Assembly: GCA_001311545.1 (NCBI GenBank)
Contig: BBBL01000013.1
Location: forward strand, 1 to 13,117
Source: Thermus kawarayensis JCM 12314
Lineage (GTDB): Bacteria > Deinococcota > Deinococci > Deinococcales > Thermaceae
DNA length: 13,117 nt
Reading direction: 5' to 3'
Part shown: positions 1 to 12,923 of the stretch, one piece after another
Position numbering within the stretch: the first letter of the stretch is position 1
Layout: every line of letters starts with the position of its first letter
The notes under the pieces: model-generated
Database searches by the model: none
Seen by the model: the letters and a program-made list of their open reading frames with translations, nothing else
What the model was told of the DNA's origin: nothing
Program-made: the position numbers and the translations under genes

Positions 1-365
1 AATGTCCGAGGCCCGGAAGGGGATCCCCTCCACCTTCCCCTCCACCAGGTCCTCGGCCTCGTAGCGGTCGGGGGAGGGAAAGAACCCCGAGGCCAGGGCC
101 TCCTCCAGCGGGAAGCCCGCCAGGGGCTCGTAGCGGAAGCCCATGGCCTCCACCAGGGGAGCTACCAGGGCCCGTTTGGCCTGGGCCTTGTAGCCGCCGG
201 GAGGATGTAGATCCCCGTGAGGGCCAAGGAGGACAGGAAGAAGAGCGGCCCCCTCCCCGCTTCCCAGAGGAGAGCCCCGAGGGAAAGGACCGCCGTCAGG
301 AGAATGAGGAGGTCTGAGAAGAGGAGGGCCCGCCTCCTCCCGCTTTCCAGAGCCTCGAGCCCCAT
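1..365 (-). CDS. DUF3137 domain membrane protein (partial, one frameshift)
   Basis: The start is ATG at 365-363, only three bases after the LemA stop. The first ~55 residues contain two hydrophobic stretches (LLILLTAVLSLGALLW and FFLSSLALTGIYILP), predicting a membrane anchor. The frame then breaks at about 194-201; one missing base restores a reading that runs off the window. That downstream part carries the DUF3137 pattern: a Tyr-rich region, then SGFFPSPDRYEAEDLVEG and a following GIPFRASD. DUF3137 proteins are of unknown function and are often found next to LemA, as here, which supports the call. The gene is cut by the window edge and its C-terminus is not visible. Family assignment is good; the biochemical role is unknown. 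Confidence 0.75.
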
Positions 366-368
366 CCC

Positions 369-899
369 CTACCCCCGGAAGAGCTCCTCCAGGTCGGGCC
401 TCTCCCGCTCCTCCTCGGGGAGGGTGAAGACGGGCCTGCGCTTCAGGCCCATGGCCCTGGCGAAGAGGAGGAAGGGAACCTGCTCCAGGGCGTTGTTGTA
501 GTCCGTCACCGCCTGGTTGTAGAAGCGCCTGGCGGCGGCGATGGAATCTTCCACTTCGGTGAGGGCGGCCTGGAGCTGGAGGAAGTTCTCGCTCGCCTTG
601 AGGTCGGGGTAGGCCTCGGCCCGGAGGCGGAGGGCGGCGAGGGCCCGGGAGAGCTCCCCCTCGAGGCGGAAGGCCTCCTCCCCCACCGCCCCCTCCAGGC
701 GCTCCCTCAAGGCCACGAGCCTCTCCAGGAGCTCCCGCTCGTGGGCCATGTACCGCTTCACCGCCTCCACCAGGTTGGGGATGAGGTCCCGGCGCTTCTT
801 GAGCTGGACCTCTATGCTTCCGAAGGCGTTCTCCACCTGGTTCTTGCGGGCCACCACGGTATTGTAGGCCCAGGCGAGGAAGAGGAAGAGGACGGCCAA
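369..899 (-). CDS. lemA: LemA family protein
   Basis: The open frame gives 176 residues and matches LemA along its length: YNTVVARKNQVENAFGSIEV, then QLKKRRDLIPNLVEAVKRYM, AYPDLKASENF and RRFYNQAVTDYN. LemA proteins have one N-terminal membrane segment and a helical-bundle domain; their function is poorly defined. The open frame starts at TTG 899, but there is no Shine-Dalgarno there and the hydrophobic segment continues upstream in the same frame (ELFALLFLAVLFLFLAWAY). A better start is ATG 922-920, with GGAAG at 935-931 eight bases before it. Joining that ATG to the frame needs one extra base near 917-921 (for example ATGGAG instead of ATGAG). It forms a two-gene unit with the DUF3137 gene and is unrelated to the defence-like genes to its right. 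Confidence 0.92.
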   Translation of the reverse strand: MAVLFLFLAWAYNTVVARKNQVENAFGSIEVQLKKRRDLIPNLVEAVKRYMAHERELLERLVALRERLEGAVGEEAFRLEGELSRALAALRLRAEAYPDLKASENFLQLQAALTEVEDSIAAARRFYNQAVTDYNNALEQVPFLLFARAMGLKRRPVFTLPEEERERPDLEELFRG

Positions 900-1128: not shown

Positions 1129-3820
1129 TTAACGTTCCTCCAGCACTTCGCCCCCCAGTTGCTTGAGCGTTTCCCGCACCTTGTTCTCTAGAGTGGCTTG
1201 GGAGATCCCCCTTGAAGAGCGAGCCCTAAGGTCTATCAGAAGCTCTATCTCGGCACCTTCCCCCTGCAAGGGGATCAACACCCCGCGCAGGAAGTCGGAA
1301 AGCCTGTTCCAGGGGAGGCGGACCTTGAGCGCATAATCCCGCACCCGTTCCGCTTCATCGCCCATGTCCACAAGGGAGTCCCCGGTAGCCCTCGTTCCAG
1401 AAGTCCCTACGGTGTATGTCCCCGCGTCAGAAGCGCTCCCGAGCGAAGAAGCGCCCTCGGCGCCACCCCCAGCCGCGTTGGGCGTTCCACCAGAAGGAAG
1501 GGCCTCCTTGCGGACGAGGACCGCATCCTCCCAAGCGACCCCGAGCACGGCTCCTGGAAATGGTGGCGCCCGCCCACCCGCAGGCCAAACGTCCCCTCCT
1601 CTACCCCCTTCCGCACTGCCTCCTCGAGGACCTCCCAACCCTTCAGGACCGGAAGGTGGGGGTAGCGCAGGAAAGCCTCGTACACCTCCGAGAGGGGCTT
1701 CTCCATTTCTCCCTGGGCCAGGCCGAAAGCAGGTGCCGGGGGGCGATGCGTTCCAGGAGGAGTTCCCGGGCCTTCAGGTAGTCGTAGACCCGCTTGGCAG
1801 GGTGGCTGCCTCCCCCACGGTGGGGATGCCCATGTCGTAGGTTTCCGGCCCCTGCCGCCCGGGCTTCGTCAAGCGGCGGTACGCATGAGGAGCTTCTGGG
1901 TGAGCCCCCCATCGGCATCCCGAAGGAGCTCGTCCAGGCGGCGGCGGTTCTCCTCGGAAAGCTGAGCGTAAAGGGTGCGGTCGTCGCGGACGGACCGCAG
2001 GGCTAGGTAGCGCCGCACCGAGCGGTGAAGGTCCCCTAGGCTGTTGGGGTCGGGCGAGAGGAGGAAGAGGGTGTTCCTGTAGGTGCGGAAGGTGGTGCCC
2101 GCCTTCTCCAGAAGCTCCTCGGCGAGCCCCCCGGAGCTCCGGGAGGACGGCGAGCTTGAGCTCCTTGGTATCGGGCACGTCCTCCGGGGAATGGGGCTCG
2201 AGGTAGACCCTAAGCTCCCGCCCGGCAAGCCTCTCAAGCCGCTCCCTTAGCGCCTGCCTGACGTGTTCGGGGTCAACGGCGCTCTCGCGCTCCACCACGA
2301 TGCGGTTGAGGTTGGGCTGGCTGGAGAAGTAGTAAAGACCGGAGGCCTCGTGCAGGTACCAGAGGAGGTCCCGCAGGCGCTAGGGTGTCACCCACCAGGG
2401 GGGGCGGAACCTCGGGGTGCAGGGAGGCGAGCCGGAGCTCAGCGGGGCCTGCCCCCTTGCGCTCGCCGCCGCTGAAGGAATAGAGGAAGATGGCCGTGGC
2501 GAGCCCAGAGGCCACCTGGAAGCGGGCGTACTCCGAGCCCATCTCCCGGTCCAGGCGCTGGGCCTTGGCCTCCCCCTGCGGGTCGGCGATGTCGGCGGCG
2601 ATCACGCTGTCAAACTCGCTTCCGATGTGCTTCACCAGCTCTCGCCGGACGCTCGGGTTCGCCAGGTTGACGTGGGCCGGGTGGATCAGGGGGGCCGGGT
2701 GTTGGCGGCCGTAGAGGTCGGCCACGATCTCCGCCAAAAGGCGCAGCACCCCCCGCGTCCGCTGGAAGGTGGGGAGGGTTCCCCACCGCTCGTAGAGCGC
2801 GTCTATGAGCTCGGGATGGAAGGGGTAGGCCCTTCGCAGGCGCTCGCGGTAGGCCGGGTCGCGGGCCTCGTCGGGCACCTCGGCCCCCAGGCGGCGATAG
2901 AGCTCAAAGTAGCCCTCGGCCACCCTCCGGACCGCCTCCTCATCCCGGATTCCCTCAAAGAGGCGCGTGCGGATGACGTCGTAGATCTCCCAGCTTGACG
3001 CTCGTAGACCGCTCCAACCGCCCGGCGATCCGCTGGAGCTGGAGGAGGGCCCGCTCCCCCTCCTCGCCGTAGGGGGCGCTGGAGGGAATGGTCATGACCA
3101 GGGCCACCCGGGGCGCCACCTTGACCGCCTCGGTGAGCTCCTGGAAGAAGGCGAGCACCTGGGTCTGGTAGGCCCGCCCCCCCTCGAGGCTCCCCCCGCC
3201 CTGTGCAGGGCCTGGGGGTCCACGGTGCGGGCCACGTACTCCGCCACCTCGTCCATGAGGATGAGGACCGGGCCGCCCACCACCCTGAAGAGCTCGTGCA
3301 ACTTCTCCTTGCCAGGGGCCTTCTGGCTTTGTCATGCTCTTCTAAAAGGCCGTAGTGGCCGAGCTGGGAGGCGAGTTCCCCCCAAGGGGTGCGGCCCTTC
3401 AGGGGGTCTGCGGCGGTGCCTACGAAGACGGCCACCTGGGCCTCCGGGATCTCCTCCACGCCCGCCTCCTCGAGGACCCGGGCGTAGAGCTCCGTCCCCC
3501 TCGCCTCCCCGCTCGAGCGGAAGAGGTGGTAGAGGGCCACGAGGCTGTGGGTCTTCCCCCCGCCGAAGGGGGTCTGGATCTGGACCACGGGCTCGCCCCC
3601 CTTCTCCCCGGAAAGCCGCCGCACCATGGCCCCGAGGAGCCTGACCATCCCCTCGGTGGGGTAGGTCTTGCGGAAGAAGGTCGGGGGGGTCGCGGTACTC
3701 CAGGGGCCCGCGGCCCGCCTGCACATCGGCCAGGTCCGCCGCGAAGGCGGACTCGTCAAACCTGCCCCGGCGGATGTCCTCGTGGGGCACTGCCACTTCT
3801 CGCCACGCCGGAAGCGCCAT
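1129..3820 (-). CDS. DUF499 family P-loop ATPase (about 11 frame breaks)
   Basis: Reconstructed span of about 900 residues. ATG 3820-3818 follows a strong GGAGGGAG ribosome site that overlaps the hepT stop region. Near residue 85 is a Walker A, TPFGGGKTHSL (about 3570-3541), preceded by FFRKTYPTEGMVRLL. A Walker B, LILMDEVAEYVA, lies near 3262-3227. Further DUF499-like segments are EIYDVIRTRLFEGIR (about 2990), YPFHPELIDALYERWGTLP, TYRNTLFLLSPD (about 2070) and the C-terminal RLPWNRLSDFLRGVLIPL (about 1320). A Gly/Ser/Thr-rich linker (about 1500-1385) precedes the last domain. Breaks fall near 3683-3689 (G7 run), 3318-3335, 3192-3197 (C6), 3009-3011, 2989-2991, 2379-2383, 2127-2132 (C6), 1884-1890, 1797-1800, 1738-1743 (G6) and 1569-1571. 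DUF499 ATPases occur in predicted defence loci and have been compared with the PglY/BrxC ATPases of BREX. The ATPase role follows from the motifs; the partner and substrate are unknown. Confidence 0.85.
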
Positions 3821-3832
3821 TATGCTCCCTCC

Positions 3833-4216
3833 TCACTTTCTCCCTCGGTCCTTCTTAGGCTCGGGACGCTCCCTCGCTCTTTCCTCGGCAAGCACCTTCT
3901 CAATCCGCGGGAGCAGCGCAGGGACGTCCTCTTGGACCGTCCTCCAGACGATTTCAAGGTCCACGCCGTGGTATTCGTGGATGAGCTTGTCCCGCATCCC
4001 CGCAACGTCTCGCCAGGGGATGTCGGAATGCCTGGCCCGAACGCCCCGCGGAATCCTCTTGGCGGCCTCGCCCAATACCTCCAGCGAGCGGAGGACCGCG
4101 TTGATCGTCTTGCGGTCTCGCAGGAACTCCTCAAAGGTCATCCCGCGGGTGAAGTCCAGCACTTCCAGGGCGGAGGCCTGCATATCTTCCAGATAGTCCA
4201 AGAGGGTGCGCCTCAT
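3833..4216 (-). CDS. hepT: HepT-like toxin (DUF86)
   Basis: An intact 127-residue frame, one of the few unbroken genes here. It carries the HepT/DUF86 signature R-x4-H-x-Y as R75-DKLI-H80-E-Y82, inside GMRDKLIHEYHGVD. Members of this family are HEPN-type RNases or toxins that are silenced when the partner nucleotidyltransferase AMPylates the tyrosine of this motif. The ATG at 4216-4214 overlaps the TGA of the preceding mntA gene (ATGA), so the two are translationally coupled antitoxin-first. The C-terminal tail (RARERPEPKKDRGRK) is charged and probably disordered. The stop lies 12 bases before the DUF499 start, with that gene's ribosome site in between, so this pair sits inside the larger operon. 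The key residues are all present and the toxin should be active if expressed. Confidence 0.92.
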   Translation of the reverse strand: MRRTLLDYLEDMQASALEVLDFTRGMTFEEFLRDRKTINAVLRSLEVLGEAAKRIPRGVRARHSDIPWRDVAGMRDKLIHEYHGVDLEIVWRTVQEDVPALLPRIEKVLAEERARERPEPKKDRGRK

Positions 4217-4534
4217 ACCTCGATAATCTCCTCGAGGACCCGCCTGCCGATGTGAGGCTTTAGGGCATTTGGCGTGACCAGTTCAACCTTCACGCCCAAA
4301 AGCTCGCTCAAGTGGCGCTCAAGCTCGACAAACTTGAGCAGCCCCGGAGGGGGGAGAACTCCACCAGAAGGTCCAAATCGCTCTCGGGCGTGGCCTCCCC
4401 CCGGGCGTAAGAGCCGAAGACGGCGATTCGCCGCACACCGTATCGGGCCGCCAGCTCCGCCTTGTGCGCTCCAAGATCCGGCAAATCTCCGCCAGTGTCT
4501 TCGGCTGCCCTTTCCCCTTGACCTTCGTTGCCAT
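4213..4534 (-). CDS. mntA: MntA-like minimal nucleotidyltransferase antitoxin (two frame breaks)
   Basis: Reconstructed length is about 107 residues. ATG 4534-4532 has GGGAG upstream and begins MATKVKGKGQ. The catalytic motif of minimal nucleotidyltransferases, G-S-x10-D-x-D, is intact as GSYARGEATPESDLD at 4415-4371, followed by LLVEFSP. The C-terminal half (FVELERHLSELLGVKVELVT, then HIGRRVLEEIIEV) is typical of MNT proteins paired with HepT. Two missing bases break the frame, at about 4468-4472 and in the G6 run at 4349-4354. The enzyme is expected to AMPylate the tyrosine of its HepT partner. Its TGA overlaps the hepT ATG by ATGA. No promoter is visible in the 58 bases separating it from the methylase stop, so it is probably cotranscribed. 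Confidence 0.9.
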
Positions 4535-4592
4535 GGCGACTCCCGTTTTCCACTCATCTCAATCCTAGCGGTTCCAAGCCCGCATCGCCATC

Positions 4593-7377
4593 TCAGTCCT
4601 GCTCGGACTCAAAGAGGCCCCCCTGGCCGGGGGACCTGCCGCCCGTAGCGTCCCGCCAGCCGTAGAGGAGCCCCTGCAGGAGCTGTTTCTCCTTGTCCCC
4701 ATTGGGGAGCACATCGGCTACTGCCTGGGCCACCTTGCGCAAAGCGCCATGGGGGAAGGGGCTTCCGCTTAGGAGCTTCTCCAGGCCCCGTTGGTCGCCC
4801 TTCTCCCAGAGGAGGACCGCTCTGTGGAGCACGTCCACCATGTTCTCAAGGTACGCTTGCGCGTGACCCTGGCGGTCCCGCTCCAGAAAGCCCCGGCCCC
4901 GCTCCTTGGGGCCCAGGACCCAGACGAGCCCCTTTTGCCTCTGGACGAAGCCCCGGCCGTCCCAGTACTCGGAAAGCTCTATGCCCACGCTCTGGGCGAG
5001 CTTCCTCGCCTCGTCAAAGGGAATCCGGGCGTGGTTGTAGGCGAAGCGCCAGAGGACGTAGAAGCGGGCGGCCAGGTCAACCCCCCCGAGCTCGCTCTCC
5101 TCCAAGATCCGCTCCAGGGCGAACTCGGCCACCACCTTGCGCACGTACTCCAGAAGCTCACCCACCGTCACCTCTTCCCCAGAGAGCTTCTCCACCCGGG
5201 CGTACTTCCCGAAGGCCTCCACGGCGGGGCCGATGGCGCTCATGAAGAAGTCCGCCCCCCGTATGCCCTCGTCCCAGAACTGGGCGAGCTTCTCCCGCAC
5301 CCGTGCCTCAATCTCCCGCTGCACCTCGGGGTAGAGGCCCACCTCGTCCGTGGTCCGCTTGCGGCAGACCATGTAGATGGAGGAAGCCAGCGCCGCCGAC
5401 TCCTGGGCCCTCAGGCGGGACTGCATCTCGGTATGAATAGGCCAGGAGGCGGTCATGTAGAGGCCAGCCTTCAAAAGCGCTTGGAGGATCGCCTCCCAGG
5501 CTCGGTGGTCTTGTGGGCGAAGACAACGACGGCGATGCCGTCGTCTTTGAGCACCCGGTGGATCTCCCGGAAGGCTGGGTAAGCCCCTCTTCAAAGCGCT
5601 TCTTGGCCGCCTCCATGTTGCCCGCCTTGCTGGCATCGGCCACGAGTTCCTCTGACTTGGGCGTCAAAGGCGTAGCAAAAAGCTCCGGGTAGAGTCCCCC
5701 TATGGTGCGCTTGAGCCAGACGTAGAAGAAGTCTGAGAGGTCCGAATAGGGCACGCTATCGTAGTAAGCGGGTCGGTGAAGACAGCGTCAAAGTGGGCGT
5801 TGGGGAAGGGAAGGGAGGTGGCGGAGGTGTGTAGCGCTCGGCCAATTCTTGAATAACCAGCAGAATAAGAGCGATGCTGTACCACTCGAAGCAAATAATC
5901 CATTGAGTCCCGCCAGTTGCCGGTAGACTCGCTTAAGGGATTTATTTCAATATAATCCCAAACCATGGGCAAAGCTTGTCTACCGAACGTGTGCGCTACC
6001 AGCTCTTTTGGAGTATGCCAAACACAAATCGTGGAATTATAATCCGCTAACCTGTCAACAGCAAGCCCCAAATACGTCCCCACCGCCTTCGCAAACTCCG
6101 GCTCCCCGCCTTCTTCCAGCATCCTGGCGTGAGCCCGGCGGACCTTCTCGGCGAAGGTGACGAGCGCCAGCTTCTGCCTGGGGTTGAAGAGGTCGCCCCA
6201 GCGGGTGAGGCCGTACCGTTGCACGCGGAAGCCAAGGGTTTCCTTCGGAGGTAGCGGCTCATCCGGCACCGGGTCCATCCCCCACTCGGCCCAAAGCTCC
6301 TGGCGCTTGGCCTCGAGCGCCTCCCGGGCAGCGCGGAAGGCCTCCAGGTCCCGCTCGGTGCTCAAGCGGTAGCGCTTGCCCGGGGTGCCGGGTCTGTGGA
6401 GGACCACGGCCACCATCCGCTCGCCCGCCTTGCCCTCGCGGAAGAGCCTGCGGGTGGTGTTGTCGTTGATGGTGCCGCCGCAGAGAGGGCAACGGACGTT
6501 AGCCCGGGAGACGGTGCCCTCCTCGGGGTCAAAATCTATGGCGCTTCCCTCCACGATGGCGAAGTCCACCCGCTTGGCCTCAAGGTTGGGCATCATCTTG
6601 AGGGCCACCCGCTTGTTCGCCTTCTTGGCGAGCCAGGTCTGGCGCATGAGGGGGATCTCGGCGCCGCAGGCGGGGTTCTGGCAGGGAAGGGTCCGGGCCA
6701 GATGTAGCCCACCGGGATGGAGCCGTCCTCGTCCTTGGGATAGAAGCGCTCGAGCTCCTTGCGGGCCTCCTCCAGCACCCACTCGCCCCAGGCCCTCACC
6801 CCCTCCACGAGGGGCGAGGCCTCCCTTCGGGAAACATCGGTCGGCCCCAAAGGGGTGAGGATCGCCTGTCGCCCCTCCTCCTTCCCCCGACCGGGCGGCA
6901 GGGGGACGGAGGGGACGGAGCCCGGCCGCCCGAACCTCTGCGGGTACTCCAGCACCGCCTTATTGAGGAGCACGGCCACGGGGTTGTAGTCCACGGCGTA
7001 GGTCTCGCAGCGAGGCGCAGGGCCTCCAGGGGAATGGCCCCACCCCCGGCGAAGGGTCCAGCACCCTGGGGGGCCTGCCGCCATGGGCCTCGAGGATGAG
7101 TGCGGGCCTTCTCGAGGTCCCGGTTCTCCCCCTGGATGGCCTCCCAGGGGGCGAGGCGCTTCACCAGACCCAAAAACTCCTGCCTGCGCCGGGGGTCGTC
7201 CGGGAGCAGGGCCGCCAGGGCCGTGGCCCTCGAGGCGGCCAAGGGCCTGCGGGCCCACCAGATGTGGAGGGTGGAGATGTGGCCGTGGCGGATGTTCTTC
7301 TCGCGAACGGAGTGCTCGGAAACCTCCCGCAAGGGGAAGTCCACCTCAATGAGCCGGGGAGCATCGGGTTTAGCCAT
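4593..7377 (-). CDS. DUF1156 adenine-specific DNA methyltransferase (about 7 frame breaks)
   Basis: Reconstructed length is about 928 residues. ATG 7377-7375 begins [20 protein letters not shown] and is followed by the DUF1156 hallmark [19 protein letters not shown]. The SAM-binding motif [15 protein letters not shown], is at about 7058-7017. A zinc-ribbon-like module (C-x4-C at 6683-6666, C-x2-C near 6491-6480) follows. The catalytic motif IV reads [13 protein letters not shown] after repair at 5768-5770. Motif order I, long insert, then IV resembles the alpha group of N6-adenine or N4-cytosine methylases. After the Rossmann part ([18 protein letters not shown]) comes a long C-terminal region ending in FESEQD. 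Breaks lie near 7100-7105, 7054-7056, 7010-7012, 6697-6700, 5768-5770, 5573-5576 and 5499-5501. It is probably the modification component of the locus; target sequence unknown. A low-GC tract lies inside it at about 5830-6060. Confidence 0.9.
5830..6060. other. Low-GC tract inside the methylase gene
   Basis: By hand count, positions 5821-6060 are about 46 percent G+C (31, 31, 26 and 23 per successive 60 bases), while the surrounding methylase sequence is far richer. The reading frame is open through it and encodes residues from about [16 protein letters not shown] to [14 protein letters not shown]. It uses A/T-ending codons that neighbouring segments avoid. It lies just before the catalytic DPPY motif. 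It may be a segment acquired by recombination from a lower-GC homologue. Confidence 0.6.
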
Positions 7378-7805
7378 CTTCAAAGCCTCCTTCAAAGAAG
7401 CGATCCGATGGGGCAGGCCCACCGGGGTCTTTGGCCCTAGGTGCCTGATCTGCCCGTCTCCGCCCACGAAGAGGACGTGAATCCCTAGGCGTGCGAGGGG
7501 CGGGTGGACCTTTTGCGCAAGGCTACGGAACCCACGGGTGTTGGGCAGGGCAATGACGCACACCGAGGAACCATCGTAGAGGGAGAGGATCTGCAAGAGG
7601 GCCTCGCCCAAAGCCATGCGCCGCTGGGCCCCCTCGTGGCCGCCAAGCCGTTCGCCCTTGGCCTCCACGTAGAGCTTACGCCCAGAAACGGGGAACTGGG
7701 CCTCGATGTCAACGCCGCGCTCGTTGCCGTAGCGCACCGTCAGGTTCATGAACCCTCCGCCTGGAGCTTCTGGGCCAGGAGCTGCTTGACTTCCCGTTCA
7801 CGCAT
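7378..7805 (-). CDS. Small PD-(D/E)XK nuclease-like protein, in frame with the methylase
   Basis: About 143 residues upstream of the methylase start. ATG 7805-7803 begins MREREVKQLLAQKLQAEGF, a helical opening typical of small restriction-fold nucleases. One missing G near 7745-7751 joins it to the main frame (NLTVRYGNERGVDIEAQF). The motif GVDIEA, then KLYVEAKGE (D at about 7710, E and K at about 7665-7657) fits the D...ExK core of PD-(D/E)XK enzymes. The remainder (QILSLYDGSSVCVIALPNT, IHVLFVGGDGQIRHLGP) has the alternating strand and helix pattern of that fold. As written, the frame has no stop before the methylase ATG, so this could be an N-terminal domain of a fused protein. A strong internal ribosome site at 7392-7386 argues for at least some separate translation. 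The fold assignment rests on motif inspection only. Confidence 0.6.
7386..7392 (-). promoter_or_regulatory. Ribosome binding site for the DUF1156 methylase
   Basis: AAGGAGG on the minus strand, eight bases before ATG 7377. This is close to a perfect anti-Shine-Dalgarno match. It lies inside the open frame of the upstream nuclease-like gene and decides the methylase start, since DUF1156 proteins normally begin just before the RLIEV-FPL segment. Confidence 0.7.
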
Positions 7806-7865
7806 TCAAGTTGTCTTTTCCGCGTTAAAATACACATTGTTCATTTGTAACACATACTCTGCGTT
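7806..7865 (-). promoter_or_regulatory. AT-rich intergenic gap, possible promoter
   Basis: A 60-base gap between the AlbA_2/winged-helix gene and the nuclease-methylase unit, clearly AT-rich compared with the genes around it. On the minus strand it contains TTACAA (7850-7845) and TATTTT (7832-7827). They are only 12 bases apart, so they do not make one good sigma-70-type promoter. A second promoter for the nuclease-methylase part of the island is plausible here, and the winged-helix protein encoded just upstream could act on it. No clean palindromic operator is visible. Confidence 0.3.
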
Positions 7866-9589
7866 TTATGCGTTGGCCAATCGATAATAAGCTCCCCTTC
7901 CCTTGCTACCTGCGGGCTTAAGCTTGCCTGCTTTTACAAGCTTCTTCAGAAGGTAATATGCCTGATATTCCTTCAAGTGACAGAGTGTCGCAGCTTCTTT
8001 TCGAGTAATTCTCCCATGAGAACGCGCATAGCTCAGGATCATTTCTTCCATCTGCTGATGCTCGAAGCCCTTCATGCGCACGTAGGCCGCCTCTTCCCCC
8101 AGCCGGCGATACGTGGCAGCCGAGAGGTGATACGTCCGCCCTCGCCCCGTGCCTCGGGCCTCGATCAAGCCCGCTTCCACTAGGCGCTCCAGCACAGCCC
8201 GGGCTGCGGCCTCCGGCTTCTGGATAAGCCTCGCGGCTTCTTGCGTGGTCAACCGTCGCTCCTGCCAGAGGCCGTTGAGAACCAGCAACTCGTCAAGTCT
8301 TAAGGGACGGTGTGCTTGACTCTCCTCCACGATGAGCGCACGAAGTTGAGGTTGGTCTCTCCCCCGGGAAGCACGAGCACCACACTCTCGGGCGTGCTCT
8401 GCTCGTAGGAAGGGGCCGGACGCCCGTTGCGGAGCTGCTCCTCAAAGATGATGTCGATCCCACGCCCAGTCCGTTCAACAACCCCAGCCCGCTTGAAGGC
8501 ATCGGCCAGCAGAGGATTGCGTGGCCGCGGCGGAGCGACGAGCAGGTTGTCCAAGCGAATCCCCTCCGGGAAGCCGCCGGGGTTCGAGATCTCGATGCGG
8601 TCCTCATGCCACTGAACGTGCACCGCGCCCAAACGGGTGTAATCGCGGTGAATCAAGGCGTTAGCAAGCCCTTCGCGGAACGCTCGTTCGGAATAGTTCG
8701 GCACACCAATCCTCATGAGCCCAAAGGATACTTCCTCCTCATGATTCCGTGCTCGAAAACGGGTTAGAAGCTCCTCCATGGTCCGCAAGAGTGGCCAGCG
8801 GAAGAACTCGTTGACCTCCACGAGCGTTCCCCTAAGCACCTGGAAGGCCACCTCGTGGGTCGGGATGAACCGCTGCAGGGCCTCCTCCTTGCCGAAGAGC
8901 AGGAGACCCAACACGCGAACCGTCTTTACCTCGTGATTGGCCTCCACGGCACCGAGGGCCTTGGCCAGCTCTACATCAGGCAAGCCCAGAAGGCTTTTGT
9001 CGCCTTGGCCGCGGCTTTCCCGGATGAAGCGCCGGAAGCGCTCAAACTCCAGGGGATCCAAATCGCTCCAAGAAGCCCCCTCGACCGGTAACACCGAGTA
9101 ATCCAGGGCTCCGCGATGGGCCAACGCCGCCTGCATTTCGTGGAAGTGGTAGGGCAAGCATTCCGGCCTTCCCGTGCCCCCAATAGCCCGCCGTTTGTAG
9201 ATGCCCTCGGCCGTCCCTACGGGCATTGTTGCCGGTGGCACCTCGATCACGAGCACAGGCTTGCCTTCAAATTCAACCACCCAAACGCGGCAACTGAGGG
9301 AAGGACGCGTCCGGTTCGCGATCAAGGCCTGAATGCGCGGGGGATCTATACCCCCGGCATGCCGGGGGCGGGCACCCGTCACCCGGCCATCGTCCTCGAC
9401 GCCGATGAGGACGTAACCCATCTCTTGCGTAGGACGATTGGCCATACATACGACCGTTTCCAACAGCTCGTTGTCGGAGAGCTGCTTTCTCTCTTCCCCC
9501 TTGAACTCAACGGTCAGGGCCTCCCCCAGTGCGATGAGTTCTCGGACTAATTCCGGAGTCATTGGATCGATTACCCTCCCTGGTTCCAT
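7866..9589 (-). CDS. AlbA_2 / GHKL ATPase-like protein with C-terminal winged helices (one frame break)
   Basis: Reconstructed length is about 574 residues. ATG 9589-9587 lies four bases after the helicase stop; ATG 9562 is an alternative. Residues ~24-150 form an AlbA_2 (Schlafen-like) domain: ALTVEFKGEERKQLSDNELL, then GYVLIGVEDDGRVTG and a TAEGIYKRRAIGG segment. Residues ~300-375 match the ATPase-like domain found in RecG-annotated AlbA_2 proteins: REGLANALIHRDYTRLGAV, EISNPGGFPEGI and ERTGRGIDIIF. After a missing base at about 8336-8338 the frame continues from VEESQAHRPLRLDELLVLN into two winged-helix-like modules (RRLTTQEAARLIQKPEAAAR and GRITRKEAATLC). They could be taken for a separate regulator, but NFVR-LIVEESQ joins smoothly. 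G+C is lower than in neighbouring genes, especially over the last ~250 bases. It probably senses or regulates through DNA binding; the exact function is unknown. Confidence 0.85.
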
Positions 9590-9593
9590 TGGA

Positions 9594-12500
9594 TCAGCTG
9601 CCCTCCGCCGCCTTCTTCCAGTCGGTGACCACGTAGCGCACCACGTCCACCACCTCCTTGGGCACGAGCTTGGCCGCCGGGTTTTGCACCCGGTGGAGCA
9701 CCGGGCGGGTGGCGGCGTGCTCCACGACATAGAGCCAGTAGTCGTCCCCCAGGCGCTGAGCCATCACCCACTCGTTGGGGGTCAGTGCCACGGGGCCCGT
9801 GGCGGCCCGCGCCTTGACCTCGATGTAGCGGACGGCCCCCTCGGGGGACACGGAACGGATGTCGTAGCCCAGGTTCTCGCGGGAGATGTCCTCGGGCGCC
9901 CACCCCGCTTCCCGCTCGTACCGCAAGGCCACCTCCATGCCGATGGCCTCCACCTCGGGGTCGGGGCGCGTGACCGCTTCCCCCTTGGTCAGGGGCACCA
10001 CCCGGGCCACGCCGAGGATCCGGGGAGCGGCCGGGGTCAGGTTGAGCTCCCGCCGTATCGCCTCCTCCAGCTTCTTCTTGCGGGCCTCCAGCTCCTCCTT
10101 CCGCCGCCTTTCGTTCTGGAGGGTCGCCTCGGGGATGTTTTCTCCCTGGGCCCGGCGGGTCTCGTACTCCACCAGCTTGGCCTCGGAGTCCAGGAGCATC
10201 CGCTCCAGGGAACGCAGGCCGTAGCGGCGCTTCACCTCGGCGTCCCGTTCCCGCCAGGCCAAAAGCTCCTGGCGGTAGCTCGAGGGCGTTCTGGATGGCG
10301 AAGCCACCACGCGCCCCTCGTCCAAAGCGCTTCCGTCCAAGGAGGCCCCCTCGGGGGGGAGAGGCTTCAGGTCCCAAAGGACCGAAGGGTGAACGAGGCG
10401 GAGCTCCCCCGCTTCGGACTGGTAGACGGTGAAGAGGCGCTTGCCCGCCACCTGGTTCTCTCCGTCGCGGACCTCCACCTCCAAAAACCAGAGGAAGCCC
10501 TCGAGTCTCCCATCGGGGTCGGCGAAGAGGGCCCCACGCCTCAGCTCCTCCTCGGACCGGGCCAGAAGCCGCTCAATGAGGGCCTCCAAAAGGGGATGCC
10601 CGGGGGCCACGAGGACCGCCTGGTGCCTCCGGGCCAAGTCCTTGGAGAAGGCCAGCTTCCGGTACTCGGTGAAGACCTCGCCGTAGCGGTCCTTGAACTC
10701 CCGGGGGAGGTCCCGTAGCTCATGGGGAACGCGCGGCACACGCCACAAGCCGTCCTCGCGCCGCTCCAGGGGCACGCCCAAGAACCTGCAGGCTCGCTCA
10801 AAGAAGCGCTCAATGTATTCCGGCACCAGGCGGTTCTCCCGGGCCCTCCGCTCCTCCCCCAGAACCCGGGTGAGGTCAATGTGGCGCACCGCCAAGGCCT
10901 CGAGGGCCGCCTCCCGCACCCGCTGGACCGCCTCTTGGTCGGGCACGGCCTCAATCTCGCGGACGATCTCGTCCAGGGTGCGCCGGTTGGCGATGGCCTC
11001 CACAATCAGCTCCTTCAGGCTCTTCCCGAGAAGCACCTCCCCCACCACGTCAAAGACCCGATCGCTCCCCAGGGCTTCCTGGATCTCCCTGAGCTTGCGG
11101 AAGAGGGCCTCGAGGACCTTCCCCTCGCGGGTGTCCATGGCCACCAGGTTGTAGATGTGCACCTCCTTGGTTTGGCCGTAGCGGTGGACCCGCCCCATCC
11201 GCTGCTCCAGGCGGTTGGGGTTCCAGGGGATATCGTAGTTGACCATGAGGGAGCAGAACTGGAGGTTGATGCCCTCCCCGCCCGCCTCGGTGGACACCAT
11301 CACCTGGGCCCGTTCGCGAAACTCGTGCTCGGCCCGGATGCGGGCGTCCAGGTCCATACCCCCGTGGAGGGAGACCACGGAGTAGCCCCACCCCCGAAGC
11401 TTCTCCACGAGGTACTCCAGGGTTTCCCGGGACTCGGTGAAGATGAGGAGCTTTTCGCCCGTCTGCTGGAGCCTTTCGTCCTCCATGACCTCCCGGAGCT
11501 TGCGCAACTTGGTCTCAATCTCCAGCCGCTCGGCCCGCCGGGCCAAGGCGATGAGCTCGTCCAGCTGGGCGATCTCGCGCTCCAGCTCCTCCCGGGTCTC
11601 GGCCGCGGTGAGTTGCTCCACCAGATCCTCTTCCCGCCTGAGGCGCTCCAGCTCCTCCAGGTCCTCCAGGGCCTCCTCGTCCACCTCGCCCCGCTCCGCA
11701 AGCCACCGGCCCACCTCCAAAAGCTGGGCGAGCCGCTCCCGGCGCCTTTCCAGGGAGCGGCGCACGGCCCGCACGCTGGAGGCCAGCCTCCGCTGCAGGA
11801 TGAGAAGCGCGAAGGCCACGTTCCGCTTCTCCCTGGCCAGGGCCTTGTTGTAGGAGGCCTCCACGTAGCTGGTGACGGCGTTGTAGAGGAGCTTCTCCTC
11901 GTCGCTCAGGTAGTAGGTCACCGTAGAGACCTTGCGAGGCGGGAAGAGGTGCCTCCCCTGGAAGTCCCTCAGGTCTTCCTTCAGCCGACGCAGGAAGAGG
12001 GGGTTGTCTTTCCTGGAAATGGATTCAAGAAGAAGCTCCCGGGAGGCAAAAAAAGCCGGGCTCCAGCAAGTCCAGAAAGAGGCGGAAGTTCTCCGGGTCT
12101 CCCCGGTGGGGCGTGGCCGTCAGGAAGAGCAGAAACTGGCTGGTGCGGGAAAGGAGCTCCCCAAGGCGGTAGCGCTCCGTCTTCTGGGTCTTCTCCCCGT
12201 AGCGGTAGGCGGTCATCTTGTGGGCCTCGTCCACGATCACCAGGTCCCAGTGGGCCTCGGCCAAGGAGGCGAGCACCTCGTCCCGCTTGGCGAAGTCCAT
12301 GGAGGTGATCGCCTGAGGGTGCTCCCGCCAGACGTTACGGCCCCAGTTGGCCTCCACCAGCCCCCGGTCCACCACCAGGAAGGTCTCGGCGAAGCGCTCT
12401 TTCATCTCGCGGCGCCACTGGTCCTTGAGGTGGCCAGGCGCCACGATCAGGGTGCGCTGGACCAGGCCCCGGTACTTCAGCTCCTTGAGCAAAAGCCCCG

Positions 12501-12923
12501 CCATGATGGTCTTGCCCGCCCCCGGATCGTCGGCGAGCAGAAAGCGCACCCGCGGGTTGCGGAGGATGTAGAAGTAGACCGCTCGATCTGGTGGGGCAGC
12601 GGGTCAATCTGGGAGACGTTCACGGCAAAAAGGGGGTCAAACTGCTGGGCGAAGCGGATGCGGTGCCCCTCCACCGCCAGGAAAAAGCCCTCGGCCTGGC
12701 CCCGAAAGTCCCGTCCTACGCTTGCCCGGAACCGCCGGAGGCTCCCCAGGTCCTGGACGGAGAGGACACGGTCGTAGTACTCCCGGGTGCGAAGGCCCAC
12801 GGCCTCGAGGCGGAAGAGGTTGTCCCACACTTGGACCTGGAGAACGCGGACGGGCTCGGGAAAGCAATCGCCCTCCAGGATGTCCCCGGGGCGGAGATCC
12901 ATTGGGTCTAAAGCGGAACCCAT
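9594..12923 (-). CDS. SNF2-family helicase with C-terminal DUF3883 domain (DrmD-like; frame breaks)
   Basis: Reconstructed length is about 1,110 residues. ATG 12923-12921 has GGGAG eight bases upstream. Helicase motifs in order: DDPGAGKTIM (Walker A, 12531-12502), VIVDEAHKM (DEAH, about 12240-12214), LFLTATPHRG (about 12129-12100), a charged coiled coil (about 11770-11475), STEAGGEGINLQ (about 11294-11259) and RMGRVHRYGQ (11201-11172). A coiled coil (about 10150-10060) precedes a DUF3883-like domain, GYDIRSVSPEGAVRYIEVKA and onward (about 9870-9730). Its D...ExK arrangement suggests a nuclease fold. Breaks occur at about 12581-12584 (missing base) and in the A7 run at 12048-12054. A compensated pair near 10303 and 10279 is likely. 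SNF2-DUF3883 helicases are common in defence islands and resemble DrmD of class 1 DISARM. It should act as the DNA translocase of this locus. Confidence 0.92.

Follow-up and report, generated by a model that had tools for sequence, protein, structure and literature searches.

Systems that contain a DUF499 protein have been described several times under different names: the association of DUF499 with SNF2-DUF3883 was noted already in 2013 (PMC3710099), and a more recent account traces DUF499 systems from notes in 2013 and 2020 through the name Hma (helicase-methylase-ATPase), given in 2021, to their renaming as BREX-Related (BR) systems in 2026 (PMC12839542). Hma was proposed as a three-gene candidate system with 1,638 instances in 26 phyla (PMC8565338), and the trio has since been described with a DUF1156 methylase and a helicase-PD-(D/E)XK fusion, the helicase being fused to an active C-terminal PD-(D/E)XK domain in 79% of Type-1 taxa (PMC12839542). 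The same paper lists standalone PD-(D/E)XK nucleases, MNT-fused HEPN proteins and Schlafen-histidine kinase-winged helix-turn-helix (wHTH) genes as auxiliary effectors. Here we analysed a 13,117-nucleotide stretch of Thermus kawarayensis JCM 12314 (contig BBBL01000013.1, hereafter the window), and we consider it very probable that the seven-gene island it carries is an Hma operon of the Type-1 BR class in a Thermus-like genome, with three optional modules placed between the core genes.

All seven genes lie on the minus strand and run from 12923 down to 1129 in the order HmaA, AlbA_2-GHKL-wHTH, small nuclease, HmaB, MntA-like, HepT-like and HmaC. An earlier sequence-only reading of this DNA had described a same-direction minus-strand island at about 1129-12923, and that description stands, with seven genes of all the families it named, in the order it gave and with E-values far beyond chance. 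Among the open reading frame (ORF) pieces of the window, the top PADLOC profile for the SNF2-DUF3883, DUF1156 and DUF499 proteins was HmaA, HmaB and HmaC, respectively, and intact relatives also ranked these Hma profiles first (E 7.2e-227, 2.2e-141 and 2.1e-154). The three proteins are encoded in one locus, in the same order and on the same strand as in most of the loci surveyed below. Pfam scans, which took 79 of the 81 window ORFs (1-210 and 4308-4553 left out), identified SNF2, Helicase_C, NOV_C (DUF3883), DUF1156, DUF499, SLFN_AlbA_2, HATPase_c_4 and HepT-like families, and active-site motifs are retained in most of the window proteins. Neither these scans nor those with PADLOC, which took 80 of the 81 ORFs (1-210 left out), found further defence families, except for distant helicase, methylase, winged-helix and nucleotidyltransferase relatives.

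HmaA (9594..12923, minus strand, four frame breaks) is an SNF2 helicase with a C-terminal NOV_C/DUF3883 PD-(D/E)XK domain, as judged from PADLOC (HmaA, E 1.6e-123, 411.8 bits), NOV_C (E 5.1e-24) and the motifs GAGKT, DEAH and QRMGRVHRYGQ. The GYDI...YIEVK signature of the C-terminal domain is kept in the window and in the HmaA of three relatives (L001, L002 and L008), and the N-terminal stretch at 12477-12923, the place of a TUDOR domain in Type-1 BR helicases, is matched by the PADLOC HmaA and DrmD profiles only. The closest proteins are P0002, which is intact and 93.7% identical (1036 of 1106 residues), and P0003 (91%); a T. scotoductus homologue (P0120) is 70% identical. HmaB, a DUF1156 DNA-adenine methylase (4593..7371, start approximate, minus strand), has seven frame breaks, and the DPPY motif region contains one of these; three of its pieces match PADLOC HmaB (E 3.1e-21, 1.2e-42 and 1.8e-25), its methylase N-terminus matches DUF1156 (PF06634, E 1.5e-21), and DPPYYD is present in the HmaB of L036 and L008. 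HmaC, a DUF499 AAA+ ATPase (1129..3820, minus strand), has about 11 frame breaks, matches the PADLOC HmaC profile with two pieces (E 1.6e-33 and 1.6e-31) and carries the motifs PFGGGKTHS and VLILMDEV.

Set against the described systems, the window resembles Hma (PMC8565338) in its three best-match proteins and differs in the three modules inserted between the core genes. With Type-1 BR systems (PMC12839542) it shares the DUF499 ATPase, the DUF1156 methylase, the Swi2/Snf2 helicase with its C-terminal PD-(D/E)XK domain and the listed auxiliary classes, while the HEPN-ATPase fusion reported there for 1370 of 2446 taxa is not seen in the window, and the small nuclease of the window falls under no Pfam model. 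Type-3 BREX has a homologous helicase, methylase and ATPase (PMC12839542), in keeping with the BrxHI/BrxHII matches in the window, but no PglZ family was found among the scanned window ORFs. The sequence-only reading had pointed to a partial overlap with DISARM and BREX part types, and this kinship is real, as HmaA matches the BrxHI/BrxHII and DrmD profiles as well, less strongly than its own. That the locus might be a DISARM variant is nevertheless extremely unlikely: the DrmD match is strong in itself (E 2.6e-78), but the HmaA profile outscores it (411.8 versus 262.1 bits), the NCBIfam DrmD model reaches 201.6 bits against a cut-off of 610 bits, and neither the Pfam scans (79 of the 81 ORFs) nor the PADLOC scans (80 of 81) yielded a DUF1998 (DrmB) or phospholipase D (DrmC) family. 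The earlier reading had likewise seen no DUF1998, phospholipase D or PglZ, and the Pfam scans agree.

Other assignments were also considered. Canonical BREX was rejected. So was Type-2 BR, since a helicase HKD/phospholipase D domain and a DUF3780 gene were not reported among the 79 Pfam-scanned ORFs, although a domain could be masked by the frame breaks, and since the NCBIfam PLD, DUF1156 and DUF499 anti-phage models scored only 96.9, 49.3 and 60.2 bits, with cut-offs at 1100, 1000 and 1200. Type-3 BR was set aside with no PglZ family in the Pfam scans, iSTAND not having been searched for by name and the window reaching 194 bases upstream of HmaA. A new system was rejected because the core matches named profiles; the core is an already described system, which explains it fully. 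The suggestion of an undefined system of unusual composition was therefore not borne out, the composition being that of an Hma, or Type-1 BR, operon with optional extras from auxiliary classes that PMC12839542 already lists. The earlier reading had itself named assignment of all genes to a defined system as grounds for giving it up, and such an assignment now exists for the core and, largely, for the extras.

To see to which extent the seven genes belong together, we used a 775-residue HmaA piece as query against genome contigs, which gave 297 HmaA-related stretches, and surveyed the neighbourhoods of the best 80, from bacteria and archaea. In 54 of the 80 loci less than 10 kb was available downstream of HmaA, and the core-trio counts use the remaining 26: HmaB was present in 26/26, HmaC in 25/26 and the A-B-C order in 24/26, the exceptions being L028, with B and C upstream, and L050, where HmaB starts only 8 kb downstream. 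HmaB and HmaC lie on the strand of HmaA in nearly every locus with room for them. The gap between HmaA and HmaB is shorter than 200 bases in 26 of 54 loci and at least 500 bases in 25, and that between HmaB and HmaC is shorter than 300 bases in 16 of 30 loci and at least 500 bases in 13; gaps of these sizes indicate that they are often slots for other genes. From 105 slot ORFs, 76 were scanned (29, short or on the opposite strand, were left out by eye), yielding in Pfam SLFN_AlbA_2 (7), HATPase_c_4 (7), NTP_transf_2 (6), HEPN (5) and HepT-like (3), and in PADLOC matches that include PDC-S09, AriA and HEC-01A. In one Actinomycetota bin a NYN-domain nuclease occupies the position between HmaA and HmaB (L015:12536-13282).

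These data argue against an obligate unit of all seven genes, since the core trio is constant and the extras are optional. We also judge it unlikely that the seven genes constitute a single integrated system and thereby a new subtype, in which the AlbA_2-GHKL protein would act as sensor and the small nuclease as dedicated effector instead of being optional cargo of a core. A Blastocatellia locus (L008) does repeat the order HmaA, AlbA_2-GHKL-wHTH, nuclease, HmaB and HmaC, which is the window order without the MNT-HEPN pair; L001 breaks off at the contig edge 30 codons into the nuclease, after HmaA and AlbA_2-GHKL-wHTH; five AlbA_2 genes begin at most 40 bases from the end of HmaA; and strong nuclease matches occur in Hma loci only. 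Many loci are, however, a bare trio, AlbA_2-GHKL homologues are found in 8, the nuclease in 5 and HepT in 6 of the 80 loci, and in L008 (17404-21142) the HmaB-HmaC slot, occupied by MNT-HEPN in the window, contains genes for a DarT-macro protein and for an OLD-type ATPase with DUF4276. For the preferred reading of an Hma core with three optional modules, it is a point against it that the AlbA_2 and MNT-HEPN modules are also widespread outside Hma loci.

The small nuclease (7375..7805, minus strand, about 143 residues, one frame break) is the least described part of the locus. It was delimited from the alignment, the protein P0243, which aligns to window 7805-7375 at 65%, and a relative's model, and in this record it runs in frame into HmaB. 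The motif G-x-D-I-E-A...E-A-K-G...Q is present in the window, and its D, E-x-K and Q are invariant in the family alignment. In the L036 relative the model has a predicted local distance difference test score (pLDDT) of 93 and an α-β-β-β-α-β core, and this modelled core together with the D...E-x-K signature places the protein in the PD-(D/E)XK superfamily, with a predicted nuclease activity; two of the five nuclease models have a mean pLDDT of only 80.8 and 61.9. Pfam gave no above-cut-off match in the four members scanned, the window piece included, Foldseek gave none at E 0.001 or better, and the family profile matched none of the sequences of solved structures. We found no paper on this family, which was not searched for by name, as it has none. 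Seven homologues were found; the host genomes contain four strong matches, every one of them within an Hma locus and three of them rows of the family alignment, and two weaker matches (G053 and G043) lie outside known Hma loci. We regard it as a rather doubtful possibility that certain Type-1 Hma systems, most of them found in metagenome bins from hot springs, carry a dedicated second nuclease, of a PD-(D/E)XK family of about 145 residues so far encountered only between HmaA and HmaB and sometimes accompanied by AlbA_2-GHKL-wHTH. Such systems would represent an Hma-specific effector subtype, with the helicase-methylase-ATPase core linked both to an AlbA_2/GHKL protein as sensor and to another cutting enzyme. 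In L036 two MntA-like nucleotidyltransferase genes stand in tandem between the small nuclease and HmaB (4238-5050).

The gene next to HmaA (7866..9562, minus strand, one frame break) encodes, according to Pfam, a Schlafen-type AlbA_2 domain (SLFN_AlbA_2, E 1.7e-15) and a GHKL ATPase (HATPase_c_4, E 1.1e-19), followed by two winged helices (HTH_20/HTH_24), and is 87% identical to the L001 gene and 74% to T. scotoductus P0181. Its homologues lie directly 3' of HmaA in L001, L008, L023, L025 and L027, in the HmaB-HmaC gap in L060 and L074, and 5' of HmaA in L046, with three of nine placements (L027, L046 and L060) assigned by position. The 80 host genomes, which together amount to about 250.4 Mb by their rounded sizes, contain 76 HATPase_c_4 matches (16, 33 and 27), of which at least nine, counted by position and including two in L074, are inside Hma loci, compared with 0.31 expected from 1.005 Mb of loci. 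The association of AlbA_2-GHKL with Hma loci is real, yet most copies are elsewhere. At least 1017 taxa have been reported to carry Schlafen-kinase-wHTH genes, termed Schlafen-family RNases, beside their BREX and BR loci (PMC12839542), and the window protein has an E-x4-E with a D at +43, the spacing of E205, E210 and D248 in SLFN13, mutation of which lowered RNase activity (PMC5862951). This spacing is a weak argument for an RNase effector, as it is shorter in L023, L025, L060 and L074, with N as the third residue in L025, and may be a general AlbA_2 pattern. Given its C-terminal winged helices and the naming of a 73% identical relative (P0186) by one source as a predicted transcriptional regulator with an HTH domain, it is quite conceivable, if somewhat short of an even chance, that the protein controls transcription of the operon instead of acting as a Schlafen-type RNase effector.

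Between HmaB and HmaC lie an MntA-like nucleotidyltransferase, a candidate antitoxin (4213..4553, approximate, minus strand), split over two frames, and a HepT-like HEPN RNase, a candidate toxin (3833..4216, minus strand), in an unbroken frame. The former matches PADLOC PDC-S09 (E 8.5e-16) and has the motif GSX10DXD, and the latter matches PF01934 (E 5.4e-30, 104 bits against a cut-off of 23.5) and has RX4HXY as RDKLIHEY. Both motifs and the adjoining genes are those of MntA-HepT pairs, from which the window differs in its split MntA frame and in scores below the curated NCBIfam type VII cut-offs of 60 bits each (MntA_antitoxin 31.9 for the MntA piece, HepT_toxin 39.6), and for the latter reason we call it an MNT-HEPN pair. 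The PDC candidates were derived from guilt-by-embedding (PMC12988326), and the window protein, by its match to PDC-S09, has an antiphage role as a candidate only. HepT had no match at 0.001 among the sequences of solved structures. Its relatives in the surveyed loci are found in L007 (a fragment), L009, L057, L069, L074 and L079. The host genomes have 52 + 119 PF01934 matches, from which a hand calculation gives a chance expectation of about 0.7 in the loci.

The many frame breaks of the island are most likely errors of this record. Frame-aware comparison with relatives placed four breaks in HmaA, one in the AlbA_2 gene, seven in HmaB, 11 in HmaC, one in the nuclease and none in HepT or the flanking LemA, and comparison with L009 by eye showed MntA in two frames, giving a total of about 25 in 11.8 kb; for HmaC and HmaB, with L036 as reference, the counts use relatives only 56% and 73% identical and may be slightly high. 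None of the genes compared, HmaA, AlbA_2, HmaB and HmaC among them, has an in-frame stop, which also holds for HmaA and AlbA_2 under a light stop penalty, and against the intact and still closely similar P0002 HmaA shows the same four breaks and no stop under either setting. Record error is favoured because a decaying gene would usually acquire stop codons along with its frameshifts. In addition, a DUF3137 homologue in the flank also changes frame, running in a frame other than that of the ORF expected to begin it, and homopolymers of at least six bases are enriched at the breaks (within 10 bases of 5/23, 1.0 expected). Several observations weigh against record error and would fit a pseudogene relic whose frames are truly broken in the organism: the sheer number of breaks, HepT as the only one of the seven genes in a single unbroken frame, the break in the DPPY catalytic-motif region of HmaB, the unbroken LemA next to the island, homopolymers of at least four bases at no more breaks than expected (9/23 versus 9.0), which makes the homopolymer support mixed, and an HmaA that is split in L008 and L036 too (two and three ORFs), so that this record is not alone in having a broken copy. 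On balance, we consider a relic improbable. Broken hmaA frames recur in public assemblies, as in L008 and L036.

Past the 3' end of the operon, window 1-899 carries LemA (374-868, 80.5% identical to that of T. brockianus plasmid pTB1) and then a frame-shifted DUF3137 fragment; the same pair is present on pTB1, suggesting a Thermus-like island flank, and the T. scotoductus homologues of HmaA and of the AlbA_2 gene likewise point to a Thermus-like source. A 137-base stretch at 969-1105 is 92% identical to T. thermophilus plasmid DNA, where in pHC11 it is unannotated and just past a vapBC pair; it may be what is left of a mobile or repeated element that bordered the island. A near-identity plasmid search returned only LemA, the 137-base stretch and short helicase matches, and no plasmid with the operon, and a protein-level plasmid search gave no close HmaA (33-39% at best among the matches listed) and no close AlbA_2 gene (26-29%).

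The published model suggests, by analogy, that the locus most likely acts as a restriction-modification-like defence. Beyond the gene content, order, motifs and recurrence observed here, each biochemical step is inferred from the protein families and the cited papers. HmaB would methylate adenine in self DNA, HmaC, as a BrxC-like AAA+ protein, would assemble a scanning complex or organise recognition, and HmaA would translocate on unmodified DNA and cut it via its C-terminal PD-(D/E)XK domain. Among the optional modules, AlbA_2-GHKL-wHTH may be a Schlafen-like RNase or a regulator, the small second PD-(D/E)XK nuclease an auxiliary effector, and the MNT-HEPN pair, with its putative RNase toxin and nucleotidyltransferase antitoxin, a growth-stopping back-up. 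The earlier proposal of self-methylation combined with an ATP-driven helicase and a large ATPase acting on unmodified DNA comes near the published model (PMC12839542), although the system is neither undefined nor unusual in composition.

As the island is now placed in a named and widespread defence class, there is no need to pursue it as a new system. The survey indicates that the gaps between Hma core genes serve as slots that take up further defence modules, and this in widely separated phyla. Within the scope searched, one small nuclease family that has no Pfam model travels with Hma, and it may represent a dedicated effector of these systems.

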